Shown here: piece by piece, positions 25,873 to 30,590 of the stretch
Numbering within the stretch: position 1 is the stretch's first letter
How the letters are laid out: each line of letters starts with the position of its first letter
From: Synechococcales cyanobacterium CRU_2_2
GTDB taxonomy: Bacteria > Cyanobacteriota > Cyanobacteriia > PCC-9006 > JAAUQQ01
NCBI GenBank assembly: GCA_012034805.1
Contig: JAAUOP010000037.1
Coordinates: 1-37,301, forward strand
DNA: 37,301 bases
Direction of reading: 5' to 3'
Program-made: the position numbers and the translations under genes
The notes under the pieces: model-generated
Database searches by the model: none
Told to the model about the DNA's origin: nothing
The model's input: the letters and a program-made list of their open reading frames with translations, nothing else

Positions 25873-28551
25873 ATGGCTGCGATCTCTCGTGATGAACTGC
25901 TGGCACTGATCGACTTGGCCCAGGCCGAAAATCGGGAGGAGCTGGATCTGTCGGGAATGGAGCTGACAGAGCTGCCCCCTGAGATCGGGAAGCTGACGAA
26001 GCTGCGGAAGCTGGTGCTGGGCAAGGTGACGGAGTGGAACTGGGTGGGTGGCAAACTAGTTCCAACCTTGGTGACCAATCAGCTGACCGCATGGCCCGAG
26101 GAACTCCAGCTTCTGACCCATCTGCGGGAACTTGATCTGAGCGGAAATCCCCTGGGCTGTTGTCCGGATTGGATTGGAAAATTCGGGCTGCTGGAGCAGC
26201 TACAGCTGACCAGCATCGGCTTGTCGGAAATCCCAGACTCGCTCGCGGCGCTGACCAATCTGACGGAACTTTGGCTCCATAGCAACCAAATCACGTCCAT
26301 CCCAGACTCGTTCGCAGCGCTGACCAATCTGACTTGTTTAGATCTGGAGAAAAATCAAATCACCGATATTCCAGTCGTACTCCAGGCCCTGCCCAAGCTA
26401 GCTCAACTCGATCTCCGGGGCAATCCCCTCAGCGTTCCCAAGGATGTTTTGGACTCCGATGCCAACACCCGAGACGACAGCGATCGACCCGCCGCAAAAC
26501 CCATCCTCGACTACTACTTCACCACCCGCGACCCCAACGAAATCACCCATCTATACGAAGCCAAACTCCTCATCGTCGGCGAAGGCGAATCCGGCAAAAC
26601 CAGCCTCGCCAACAAACTCATCACCCCCGAATCCCCACTCCAACCCCAGCCCACCACCCACGGCATCGACATCCTCCCCTGGGACTACACCCACCAAGAC
26701 CACCCCTACCGCATCCACATCTGGGACTTCGGTGGCCAAGAAATCTACCACGCCACCCACCAATTCTTCCTCACCGAACAATCCCTCTACCTCCTCGTCG
26801 CCGACAGCCGCAAAGAAGACACCGACCACCCCTACTGGCTCAACATCATCCGCCTGCTCAGCAACAACAGCCCCGTCCTCCTCGTCCGCAACGAAAAAGA
26901 CGATCGCCCCTGCAACCTCAACCTCCGCGAACTCCGCACCGAATTCGACGCCCTCTCCATCCCAAAACCCATCAACCTCGCCGACGATCGCGGCCTCCCC
27001 GACCTCCGCAAAGCCATCCAGCGCCAGCTCGAAGACCTCCTCGGCCCCGGCATCCGCTTCCCCAACAAATGGTTCAACCTCCGCAACAGCCTCGAAAACG
27101 ACAAACGCAACCACATCACCCTCCACGACTACCAAGCCACCTGCCGCCGCCATAACATCACCGACGAGCGTGAAATGCTCACCCTCAGCAACCACCTCCA
27201 CCAGCTCGGCACCTGCCTCCACTTCCAACACGACCCCATCCTCAAACACACCCTCATCCTCAAACCCAACTGGGGCACCGCCGCCGTTTACAAAGTATTG
27301 GACAACGATCGCGTCACCCAAAACCTCGGCCAATTCAGCACCGCCGACCTCAGCGACATCTGGAGCGATCGGCAATACACCAACCTTCAGGACGAACTAC
27401 TCCACCTGATGCGCCAATTCAAAGTCTGCTACGAAATCCCCCACCGATCGGGCCATTACATCGCCCCCCACCTCCTCAGCACCGACTCCCCCGACTACCC
27501 CAACTGCTGGAGGAGCCCCACCACGATCGCCCTACGCTACGAATACGAAGGCATCATGCCCAAGGGCCTCCTCAGCCGCTTCATCGTCGAAATGCACGAA
27601 GACATCGAAAACGTCTCCTGCCCCGACCAAGCCCTCGTCTGGCGAACCGGCGTCGTCCTGAGCCGAGCCAACAACCGCGCCGAAATCCTCGAAACCCAAA
27701 TCCGCAACGAAATCCAAATTCGCGTCAGTGGCCCTAGCCCCCGCGACCTCCTCACCGTCATCCACCACGAATTCACCAAAATCCACAACAGCTTCGGCGA
27801 TCAACTCCACTACGACACCCGCATTCCCTGCAATTGCAGCTGCTGTAAACCCAGCAAAAAACCCAACAGCTTCACCCTCAAACTAATCGACACCTACATC
27901 GAACGAGGCCAACCGACCATTCAATGTAATGAAAGCGCCGAAAATGTCCAAGTCCGTAACCTACGCGATGGCGTAATTGCCCCCGATCGGTTCGATAAAC
28001 CAGGGTATGAAGCATTCATGGGCTACGATCGGCCAGACTTCGGCCCCGATCTAACCTCGGTGCGATCGCGCAAACCATCCAGCCCCAAAAGCCGAAAACC
28101 TAAAGCAGAAAAATCAGTTCAGCCGATCGTCAACGTTACCGTACACGCCAATAATCAACAGGAGCAAACCATGACTAACGACAAAATTTGGAACGGCGAT
28201 CGCATCGATGGCGATAAAGTCATGGGCGATAAAGTTGCGGGCAACAAAATGCAAATCAACACCGTTCAGGGGGACGCGATCGCAGGCAACAAAATCGTCA
28301 ATGCCCAAAACCTCACCGAAGCCGCCAAAGACATCAAAGCACTACTCAATCAAATCTCCGCGACCGACACAACGAAGAATCCAATGCTCATCGCCGTAAA
28401 AGCGATCGCAGAAATTGAGAACAACCCAACCCTCAAAACCCGCATCCTTAACGCAGGCAAAGAAGCTGGATTTGCCGCCCTCGACGCCGCCGTCGATCAC
28501 CCCGCCATCAAAATCGTCACTGCCGCATTGAAAGGGGCGATCGACGCCTAA
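25873..28551 (+). CDS. LRR-Roc-COR (Roco) GTPase with C-terminal pentad repeats
   Basis: An 892-residue signalling protein. Residues 1-190 are leucine-rich repeats of about 23 residues (LTELPPEIGKLTKLRKL, ITSIPDSFAALTNLTCLDL), two of them nearly identical in DNA 69 bases apart. The Roc GTPase follows: P-loop GEGESGKTS near 235, DFGGQE at 285, and RNEKDD at 339 in place of NKxD. Then comes the COR domain with CNCSCC (653 on) and a later Cys, a likely metal knuckle seen in other bacterial Roco proteins. The last 120 residues hold seven x-G-[DN]-x-[IVM] pentads and a helical end. ATG 25873 is preferred to the TTG at 25852. Roco GTPases dimerise through COR; the cellular role of bacterial members is mostly unknown. 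Third codon positions turn strongly C-rich after about 26455. Confidence 0.93.
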   Translation: MAAISRDELLALIDLAQAENREELDLSGMELTELPPEIGKLTKLRKLVLGKVTEWNWVGGKLVPTLVTNQLTAWPEELQLLTHLRELDLSGNPLGCCPDWIGKFGLLEQLQLTSIGLSEIPDSLAALTNLTELWLHSNQITSIPDSFAALTNLTCLDLEKNQITDIPVVLQALPKLAQLDLRGNPLSVPKDVLDSDANTRDDSDRPAAKPILDYYFTTRDPNEITHLYEAKLLIVGEGESGKTSLANKLITPESPLQPQPTTHGIDILPWDYTHQDHPYRIHIWDFGGQEIYHATHQFFLTEQSLYLLVADSRKEDTDHPYWLNIIRLLSNNSPVLLVRNEKDDRPCNLNLRELRTEFDALSIPKPINLADDRGLPDLRKAIQRQLEDLLGPGIRFPNKWFNLRNSLENDKRNHITLHDYQATCRRHNITDEREMLTLSNHLHQLGTCLHFQHDPILKHTLILKPNWGTAAVYKVLDNDRVTQNLGQFSTADLSDIWSDRQYTNLQDELLHLMRQFKVCYEIPHRSGHYIAPHLLSTDSPDYPNCWRSPTTIALRYEYEGIMPKGLLSRFIVEMHEDIENVSCPDQALVWRTGVVLSRANNRAEILETQIRNEIQIRVSGPSPRDLLTVIHHEFTKIHNSFGDQLHYDTRIPCNCSCCKPSKKPNSFTLKLIDTYIERGQPTIQCNESAENVQVRNLRDGVIAPDRFDKPGYEAFMGYDRPDFGPDLTSVRSRKPSSPKSRKPKAEKSVQPIVNVTVHANNQQEQTMTNDKIWNGDRIDGDKVMGDKVAGNKMQINTVQGDAIAGNKIVNAQNLTEAAKDIKALLNQISATDTTKNPMLIAVKAIAEIENNPTLKTRILNAGKEAGFAALDAAVDHPAIKIVTAALKGAIDA
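28192..28296 (+). repeat. Seven pentapeptide repeats in the Roco C-terminus
   Basis: Seven consecutive 5-residue units: NGDRI, DGDKV, MGDKV, AGNKM, QINTV, QGDAI, AGNKI. The pattern is x-G-D/N-x-aliphatic, with 15-base spacing but little base identity, so it is conserved as protein rather than as fresh DNA duplication. Such Gly-Asp-x-Val runs also occur in other cyanobacterial signalling and conflict proteins (recalled, not searched). Confidence 0.8.
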
Positions 28552-28775: not shown

Positions 28776-30590
28776 ATGTACCCTGGTGAATACCCAGAGA
28801 GCCCGAGTACATTAAAAAAACAGGTGCAACGGGTGCAAATACAAGTCAGGTGCAGGCCAACATCGATGAAATCATCGAACTCGCAACCTCACGTTTTTTT
28901 ACCCATGCGATACCCCAATAGACTGACGCAATGTTTCCGCTTGCCTGTGGTGGCGGCTAACCTGACTGTTGCGAACCTAACCCGTTTTAGCCTAGCAATC
29001 TCAAGCGTATTAATTCTAGGGGGGCAAGTCCAAGCAGAAGAGACATGGCCCCACCCTGTGCCACCCAATCCGCTTCAAGACACCCAAAACGATACTCCCA
29101 AAGATGCAGTCCTGCGCTGGAACGAAACCACTCTAAAGGCGATTAGCTTGGCCAAACTTGGGCCTACCCCGACCTCTCGTGCCATTGGCATCGTAACCAC
29201 CAGCATGTATGACGCTTGGGCAGCCTACGATCAGCGCGCCATCGGCACCACGCTTGGAAATTCACTTCAGGTGTCTGCCGAGCACATTAACGACAGCAAT
29301 AAACAAACCGCCTTGAGCTTTGCCGCTTATCGCACGCTTAGCGATTTGTTCCCAGCCCAGACCGAGTTGTTTAACCAACTTATGACTGAGCTAGGCTATG
29401 ACCCTCAGCTCGCCACGACCGAAACCACCAGCGCTGCCGGAATCGGCAATTATGTCAGCCAGCAGCTCATTGCTTCTCGCCGAGCAGACGGCTCCAACCA
29501 ATTGGGAGGTTATGCTGATATCAGCAATTATCAACCCCTCAACCGTTGGAACGACATTCAAGACCCTGCCCACTGGCAACCCCTCAGCCTTGATGGTGGC
29601 CAAAAAGTTCAAACATTTTTGACTCCCCATTGGGGCAAGGTCACTTCCTTCGCGCTCACGTCGGGCAATCAGTTTTTGCCACCGCCGCCAGAGCCTTTTC
29701 AAGATGAAAGTGGCCAGCTCAATCCGGATTTTGTGGCCCAGGCACTTCAAATTTTGGAATACAACGCAGAATTGACCGATCGCGAAAAAGTGATCGCAGA
29801 ATACTGGGCAGACGGCCCAGGTACGATCCTACCGCCAGGACATTGGCAACAATTTGGGCAAACCGTTTCAATCCGAGACCAACTCTCCCTCGACGACAAT
29901 GTCAAACTTTTCTTTGCCCTCGGCAACGCTATGCTCGATTCAGGGATTGCAGCCTGGGATGCCAAAGTCACCTACGACTATGTGCGGCCCATTAGTGCTA
30001 TCCGCTACCTAGCTCAAAACAATCTGCTGCCCACAGACCACGCCAACGTAAGACTCAACGCTGCAGGCCAAACCGAAATTTATGCCTGGGCTGGCCCCAA
30101 TCGGGGATCGGACTGGATTTTGGGCAGCGAGTGGCTGCCCTACCAGGCGCTATCATTTGTGACCCCGCCGTTTGGAGAATACGTTTCGGGGCACAGCACC
30201 TACAGTGCCGCCGGGGCAGAGATTCTGCAACGGTTTACGGGCAGTGAGGCCTTCGGACTCTGCCACCTAGAGCCCGCTAACAGCTCCCGGTTTGAATCGG
30301 CAACGCCCAACGAACCCGTCGAACTCTGCTGGGATACATTTACGGCGGCAGCGGATCAAGCCGGGATGTCGCGGCTGTATGGTGGAATTCACTTTGCCGA
30401 CGGAGATATTCAAGGACGAGTTTTAGGGCGATCGGTGGCGGGTGCCGTTTGGGATAAGACGCAGTTTTATATCAACGGAGGACAGACCACGAAAGTTCCG
30501 GAACCGTCAGCAGGCTTGGGGTTCGCGATCGTCCTCTGGGGCATGGCCAGACGCTCTTCCCAGCCGAAAAAGATAGGCCTAAAACCATAG
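28776..30590 (+). CDS. Vanadium-dependent haloperoxidase-like protein with PEP-CTERM tail
   Basis: A secreted PAP2/haloperoxidase-superfamily enzyme, 604 residues. Vanadate-site signatures are present: KVTYDYVRPISAIR, the PPFGEYVSGHSTYSAAGAEIL loop (Ser-Gly-His-Ser) and the late GIHFADGDIQGRVLGR. The C-terminus is a PEP-CTERM sorting signal: VPEPSAGLGFAIVLWGMARR, that is the PEP motif, a membrane helix and basic residues. A signal peptide ends near GGQVQAEE. Whether it oxidises halides or acts as an acid phosphatase cannot be told. The start is uncertain: ATG 28776 follows AAAAAGGAC closely, while MKSSNS (28866) or MRYPNR (28905) would give a better signal peptide. The 224 bases before it hold no other gene. 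Confidence 0.87.
   Translation: MYPGEYPESPSTLKKQVQRVQIQVRCRPTSMKSSNSQPHVFLPMRYPNRLTQCFRLPVVAANLTVANLTRFSLAISSVLILGGQVQAEETWPHPVPPNPLQDTQNDTPKDAVLRWNETTLKAISLAKLGPTPTSRAIGIVTTSMYDAWAAYDQRAIGTTLGNSLQVSAEHINDSNKQTALSFAAYRTLSDLFPAQTELFNQLMTELGYDPQLATTETTSAAGIGNYVSQQLIASRRADGSNQLGGYADISNYQPLNRWNDIQDPAHWQPLSLDGGQKVQTFLTPHWGKVTSFALTSGNQFLPPPPEPFQDESGQLNPDFVAQALQILEYNAELTDREKVIAEYWADGPGTILPPGHWQQFGQTVSIRDQLSLDDNVKLFFALGNAMLDSGIAAWDAKVTYDYVRPISAIRYLAQNNLLPTDHANVRLNAAGQTEIYAWAGPNRGSDWILGSEWLPYQALSFVTPPFGEYVSGHSTYSAAGAEILQRFTGSEAFGLCHLEPANSSRFESATPNEPVELCWDTFTAAADQAGMSRLYGGIHFADGDIQGRVLGRSVAGAVWDKTQFYINGGQTTKVPEPSAGLGFAIVLWGMARRSSQPKKIGLKP

Follow-up and report, generated by a model that had tools for sequence, protein, structure and literature searches.

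We analysed a Roco gene in a 37,301-nt stretch of DNA (the window) from Synechococcales cyanobacterium CRU_2_2. The gene lies at 25873..28551 on the + strand and encodes 892 residues from ATG to stop, just as the sequence-only reading of this DNA had placed it; an earlier start at TTG 25852 (+ strand), adding seven residues, is possible. On the same strand it encodes leucine-rich repeats (LRRs; 26101..26430, Pfam LRR_4, LRR_8 and LRR_14), a Roc GTPase domain (26563..26901, PF08477, E 2e-24), COR-A (27061..27477, PF16095, E 1e-44) and COR-B (27523..27969, PF25497, E 4.7e-34), each above the Pfam cut-offs, which bears out the LRR, Roc and COR domains first read from the letters. With LRRs before Roc and both COR-A and COR-B after it, the window protein is a Roco protein by Pfam, and it has Roc-COR rather than a STAND NTPase (NACHT or NB-ARC), for which Pfam gave no match in this protein. 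COR-B is followed by a linker of about 67 residues (27970..28170, + strand) that varies among relatives and whose end, N-N-Q-Q-E-Q-T, encodes an internal Shine-Dalgarno sequence. Beyond it lie a pentad array (28192..28296, + strand) and an 84-residue C-terminal domain (28297..28548, + strand), predicted to be helical by inspection only and without a Pfam match; array and helical end together are called the tail below.

The array consists of seven consecutive pentads, in order NGDRI, DGDKV, MGDKV, AGNKM, QINTV, QGDAI and AGNKI. The sequence-only reading had described seven exact five-residue units; the seven pentads are there, but the pattern G-[DN]-x-[VIM] holds for six of them and not for QINTV, the fifth, and three of the seven have V at position five. 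Among 20,000 shuffles of the tail, each scored in its best register, 14,366 contained no unit, 5,564 contained one, 70 contained two and none contained more; the array is far beyond chance. It behaves like a true repeat, since relatives have anywhere from 0 to 7 G-[DN]-x-[VIM] units. When the pattern was searched in the organism's own genome, two places besides the window were found, no more than in the reversed control. The pentapeptide models PF00805, PF13599 and PF13576 matched neither the window protein nor 56 tail-bearing proteins, and in scans of these 56 no Pfam family covered the tail and no EAD model matched at E<=0.01, the library holding at least EAD10. The tail was accordingly not assigned to the pentapeptide repeats or to a known adaptor domain, as Pfam, NCBIfam and PDB gave no substantial match. 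A KANK1 ankyrin match (E 0.009) and one to GapS6b (1/16 members, E 0.003) were taken as chance; the papers listed for GapS6 (6 of 67) were all unrelated.

A second start signal is found at the border between linker and array. An AGGAG sequence (28160..28164, + strand) with a duplex energy of -6.6 kcal/mol lies 6 nt before an in-frame ATG (28171..28173, + strand), a predicted start codon conserved at this border. Initiation there would yield a product of 126 residues (28171..28551, + strand) comprising the array and the helical domain, an extent also seen in stand-alone homologues. The gene's own starts lack a Shine-Dalgarno sequence (0.5 kcal/mol at ATG 25873, 0.2 kcal/mol at TTG 25852), and an energy of -4 is reached in 4/20 other long open reading frames (ORFs) of the window, each taken at its first listed start. 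With a second start signal immediately ahead of the repeat, two proteins are the likely products of this gene.

The border start is kept among relatives in which Roco and tail are fused. It is present in 30 of 31 fused Roco ORFs (26 ATG, 4 GTG), while the linker upstream of it diverges, and the residue after it is S, T or A in 30/30 cases, as compared to 19/183 other Met codons of the same ORFs. Mean Shine-Dalgarno energy at these borders is -4.6 kcal/mol versus -1.4 kcal/mol at 270 other in-frame ATG and GTG codons (p = 3e-8), with 20/30 borders at -4 kcal/mol or better; the thirty-first ORF (L060) was left out of this test. Compared with synonymous re-encodings, the codons in use strengthen the Shine-Dalgarno sequence by a mean of 2.3 kcal/mol (Wilcoxon p = 1e-7), showing that codon choice upstream of the border favours it beyond amino-acid need. 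In a blind test of junction windows, a start with a Shine-Dalgarno sequence of -4 or below was found in 22/31 Roco fusions versus 100/1,109 control windows, and in 43/60 fusions of the tail to other proteins versus 185/1,353 control windows. Re-encoding of the whole junction window gave -2.38 for Roco fusions against -0.44 for controls (p = 0.0014) and -1.25 for non-Roco fusions against 0.47 (p = 2.5e-4). The border Met is the very first residue in at least 13/59 small database proteins, some of which may be gene calls on partial contigs. The family thus has a conserved in-frame start with a ribosome-binding site, as expected for nested small subunits.

Searching a database with the tail gave 57 hits among proteins of 0.55-1.75 times the query length; apart from the window's own protein, 55 of them have COR domains and one is a pentapeptide protein. 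The sequence-only reading could not match the arrangement to a described Roco; it is not unique to this one: 55 of the 56 tail relatives carry COR, and the module ends other proteins as well. In 12 of the 55 COR-bearing relatives the pentads are swapped for another short motif (KGANIANFANEVKDNARQQANQ type) and the helical end is kept; proteins whose arrays differ widely in type have the conserved helical part in common. A tail profile matched 102/388 genomes sampled from the class (E<=1e-8), 15/42 from one order and 146/388 from another order at E<=1e-12, the three samples overlapping; a scan of genome contigs with the single sequence gave only 4 loci. By Pfam, the N-terminal partners of the tail include Roco, pentapeptide, DUF4926, WD40-TIR, NACHT-HEAT and TPR proteins (30 proteins scanned, 8 of them without any Pfam family), and stand-alone tail genes of about 120-130 residues also occur. 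The array and the predicted helical end are a portable cyanobacterial module that is exchanged between unrelated proteins. The sequence-only reading would have been abandoned had the segment proved an ordinary linker found in unrelated proteins; it does occur in unrelated proteins, but it is not such a linker, an identity ruled out by its recurrence in 55 COR-bearing relatives and by its pairing with neighbouring genes. The same tail terminates a WD40-TIR protein (L068, 853-4413, + strand; L numbers denote fetched loci) and a NACHT-HEAT protein (L096, 512-4057, - strand). Three proteins of 1,338-1,360 residues with a terminal tail (L102, L103 and L106) form one cluster, and L102, when scanned, matched nothing in Pfam or PADLOC.

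Where the tail is a gene of its own, the preceding gene often ends in a matching array. In L199 the upstream protein ends in ...IHQNGLGDNSAGDKVMGDK and is followed by a tail gene with MSNIYQSGKGDNIAGDKVMGDK; the corresponding pairs are ...ATIGVGYAEQLQSGQIGGKIDN and ...ASIGVGYSEKVEAEQIGGTINN in L083, and ...GNLIQGNVSGSVSY and ...GNFIQGNVSGNVSF in L130. For 34 non-redundant split loci (near-duplicate tails, 5 of 39, left out), the mean score of own pairs is 36.3 versus 21.6 +- 1.25 for permuted pairs, a value reached by none of 20,000 permutations. The partner was taken as the nearest upstream ORF of at least 130 residues, which is the wrong one for L136, and with this partner 11/34 loci score 45 or more. 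Upstream partners with this cognate pairing include DUF6232 proteins (by Pfam in L083, L130, L132, L166 and, in the organism's own genome, L013; others by resemblance), some with transmembrane-like stretches. Two further ones are a pentapeptide protein in L169, which seems to have membrane stretches, and, in L193, a HEAT protein truncated at the contig end. The earlier suggestion of a nucleating segment of the NLR kind gains indirect support here, since the neighbours in split loci often end in a matching array, the signature of paired motifs.

Locus L013 (own genome G000:C236, 1489-2453, - strand) is a second, split locus in the organism, with a DUF6232 protein that has transmembrane-like stretches and ends in VNVTGDFNGNLHNGEKKVAIFN. 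After it, a small reading frame starts with the cognate motif NNSINIGRDFNGSLHN; because the tail continues in another frame, this tail gene is broken or misassembled. Recurrent upstream partners of 207-300 residues without the tail motif were also seen (L171, L174, L176, L188 and L190), some with an apparent N-terminal membrane stretch; a scan of L188 gave no Pfam family.

The Roco genes themselves occur in both forms. The fetched loci contain 70 Roco ORFs: 32 fused to the tail, 14 split from it, 21 tail-less in the fetched flank, 1 cut (L034) and 2 fragments. Sixteen were initially scored as split, of which 14 are distinct, the fragment ORFs in L022 and L033 being dropped. Most split loci were fetched for holding a tail, so that these counts do not give the frequency of the split form, and the 30 loci fetched by COR-B were the top-scoring ones rather than a random set; in 21 of these 30 the fetched flank, which covered 38-1,320 bases downstream, held no tail. 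Each of the 14 split Rocos has an array at its end, with an array-bearing tail gene up to 746 bases downstream. Own pairs score 74.4 on average against 60.8 +- 4.1 for permuted pairs (p = 4.5e-4), and the best-scoring tail has the same array type in 14/14. What the two forms have in common is a free array-helix protein, encoded by its own gene in split loci and predicted in fused ones, that faces a sensor with the same array. Tail genes 3' of split Rocos often have an N-terminal domain (L019-L024, L028, L029, L033 and L056), either DUF4926 (by Pfam in L024, by resemblance in others) or a 'MLPEYD' domain without a Pfam match (L019). Both of these domains look antitoxin-like.

We consider it somewhat probable, from the sequence comparisons above, that this one gene encodes a Roco receptor and, by internal initiation, a 126-residue array-helix partner, the two co-assembling through the array. 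The internal ATG 28171 with its Shine-Dalgarno sequence would yield a free array-helix protein beside the long Roco. Judging from the families involved, LRR sensing and the Roc GTPase/COR dimer would control exposure of the array. Once activated, the Roco dimer would expose its array as a template for free array-helix subunits, in a homotypic assembly. Array might meet array as a stacked beta-solenoid or an amyloid-like template, and the helical domains so clustered would trigger a defence or death output. Fusion with an internal start would stand in for the two genes of the split form, each with its own array. Homotypic assembly is the most economical reading.

Several observations weigh against co-assembly with an internally initiated partner. 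The window has one array and no tail gene alongside, so that pairing of arrays applies to the window gene by analogy only. One fused Roco, L060, has no clear border start, 10/30 borders have a Shine-Dalgarno sequence weaker than -4 kcal/mol, and 4/30 borders individually reach p<=0.05 in the synonymous test. In whole-window re-encoding, p<=0.05 was reached by 5/31 Roco fusions versus 8/117 control windows and by 3/60 other fusions versus 4/199 control windows, and some of the best starts in the junction-window test lie inside GD-rich arrays, not at the border. Both the border residues and the types of array were judged by eye, and all p-values are uncorrected for relatedness. Among the split loci, 23/34 have no strong match to the nearest upstream ORF, and the array score alone is unspecific, since 25 or more is reached by 255/1,122 mismatched pairs as well as by 13/34 own pairs. 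Finally, 0/167 tail ORFs (duplicates from overlapping loci included) have a transmembrane-like 19-residue window, which is unlike BELL.

A mobile tail cassette might instead have been captured in frame together with its leader, the ATG and Shine-Dalgarno sequence being leftovers and the long Roco the only product. Stand-alone tail genes could serve as such a source, and capture or loss is frequent. A COR-B tree with 65 rows requires 14 changes between fused and not fused, of which supported branches force 10; the split state, represented by 12/14 split Rocos because 2 had too little COR-B, requires 4 (3 forced). From these repeated changes the fused and split forms interconvert. A relic, however, would not be expected to keep its start codon in 30/31 Roco fusions while the preceding linker diverges, nor to have synonymous codons that favour the Shine-Dalgarno sequence. 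In tail genes with an N-terminal extension of their own, where the border Met is internal, a Shine-Dalgarno sequence of -4 or below is found in 2/9 as compared to 20/30 fusions (rank test, p = 0.04), as would be expected if the internal start is required in fusions but dispensable in split genes. We therefore regard a relic start as rather unlikely.

Unlikely, too, is an arrangement in which the helical domain is the homotypic interface, as in an EAD-like adaptor, and the array a mere rigid beta spacer of variable length. It would account for a helical part that is conserved over very different array types, and EADs, as described in parts of PMC7159879, are small and for the most part all-helical, with adjacent genes carrying cognate copies. 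In the matched split loci, however, the upstream partner bears an array and not a helical domain; it is the arrays that match, and copies of the helical domain on adjacent genes' products were not seen there. The tail also matches no Pfam EAD model, though at least EAD10 was in the library. The array could also be a static pentapeptide-like beta-helix, a scaffold for the Roco dimer that neither has a partner nor signals. This agrees with the strict five-residue period and with the pentapeptide proteins that often bear the same tail, yet it is quite improbable, as the array matches no pentapeptide Pfam model and a static scaffold leaves the matching neighbour arrays and the internal start unexplained. 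A BELL-like pore former was not adopted, the tails being without a transmembrane-like helix.

One relative places the module in a conflict setting. In L230 (6855-14993, - strand), genes for a caspase, an EAD10-VMAP protein, an AAA ATPase and a 1,196-residue Roc-COR-array-tail protein are neighbours, with an EAD10-NACHT gene, a second EAD10-VMAP gene and a transposase nearby. The Roc-COR protein has 73% tail identity and the same AGGAG-6-ATG arrangement; it is probably the Roc-COR protein of Calothrix PCC 6303 that is named in a section of PMC7159879. The AAA gene appears to be MoxR-like. The PADLOC candidate-defence family PDC-M14B matches L076 (851-1942, + strand; E 9.5e-42, residues 94-327), spanning most of the L076 tail at the C-terminal part of the match, and also matches the window tail at E 4e-4 (3/16 members match). 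The L230 neighbourhood suggests a conflict role for the array-helix module, and its fusions to WD40-TIR and NACHT-HEAT proteins point to the same setting. The immune setting proposed from the letters is thus supported by the caspase/EAD10-VMAP/AAA relative and by the PDC-M14B match, with the role itself still inferred. The window gene is flanked by cbiD and a vanadium-haloperoxidase-like gene. The latter lies directly 3' of the Roco (28776-30590, + strand), with VCPO_2nd and DUF6851 matches and a marginal PEP-CTERM match.

The logic of co-assembly through the array resembles NLR/effector amyloid signalling (HET-S/NWD2 in fungi; BASS motifs with BELL domains in bacteria), with a Roco replacing the NLR and the order of motifs reversed. 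In those systems, as outlined in parts of PMC12261475 and PMC7889193, amyloid signalling motifs pair NLR N-termini with effector C-termini encoded by collocated genes. Here too, a short motif is common to the products of neighbouring genes, a larger sensor-like protein accompanies a small protein with a predicted helical domain, and the hosts are filamentous bacteria including cyanobacteria, as in the same portions of PMC7889193 and PMC12261475. The BASS hallmark of the same motif in proteins of neighbouring genes is seen in the split relatives only. Unlike the NLR systems, the sensor is as a rule a Roco, DUF6232, pentapeptide or HEAT protein and not an NLR (L096 is NACHT-HEAT). Unlike BASS/BELL, the motif is a pentad array located at the C-terminus of the sensor and the N-terminus of the partner, the partner has no transmembrane-like helix, and it can be nested in the sensor ORF by a predicted internal start. 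We did not file the family as a BASS member because sensor class and polarity differ and an amyloid state is only proposed.

Like EADs, the tail is a non-enzymatic module borne by many sensors and effectors, and one relative lies in a VMAP operon; cognate copies in adjacent genes were seen for the array, not for the helical domain. It differs from EADs in matching no Pfam EAD model and in that the matching element is a repeat array and not a globular domain. Cas11b, a small subunit made from a nested start within the ORF of a large Cas protein (described in a portion of PMC11899642), offers a parallel: one ORF would give two products, the C-terminal part being also a free subunit, though start use here is predicted only and no sequence relation is claimed. 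Like other prokaryotic Roco proteins, including the C. tepidum protein whose Roc-COR structure is cited in part of PMC7159879, the window protein has LRR, Roc and COR-A/B. What sets it apart is an added array and helical tail with their own start signal.

A literature search on short isoforms from internal translation in phage defence gave no papers. Titles and opening lines of abstracts retrieved for DUF6232/DUF4926, cyanobacterial Roco and Roco with TRADD-N, and for amyloid motifs alone or with pentapeptide, do not describe the tail.

More tentatively, it is possible that the array acts beyond the NLR systems as a signalling amyloid, or as a templating solenoid, and that the single ORF with its nested start is a compressed form of a widespread cyanobacterial two-gene system, in which sensors as different as Roco, DUF6232-membrane, pentapeptide-membrane and HEAT proteins would each bear an array matching that of their own small array-helix partner. 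A review of amyloid signalling asks, in a section of PMC7889193, whether NLR-independent signalling amyloids occur in fungi and bacteria; the Roco array-helix family is a concrete, testable candidate for one, in the Roc-COR class to which LRRK2 belongs (part of PMC4104024). About two dozen natural matched array pairs, plus mismatches, are available for seeding comparisons. A two-gene receptor-partner system may fold into one gene by keeping the start of the partner, an arrangement that ordinary annotation could overlook.

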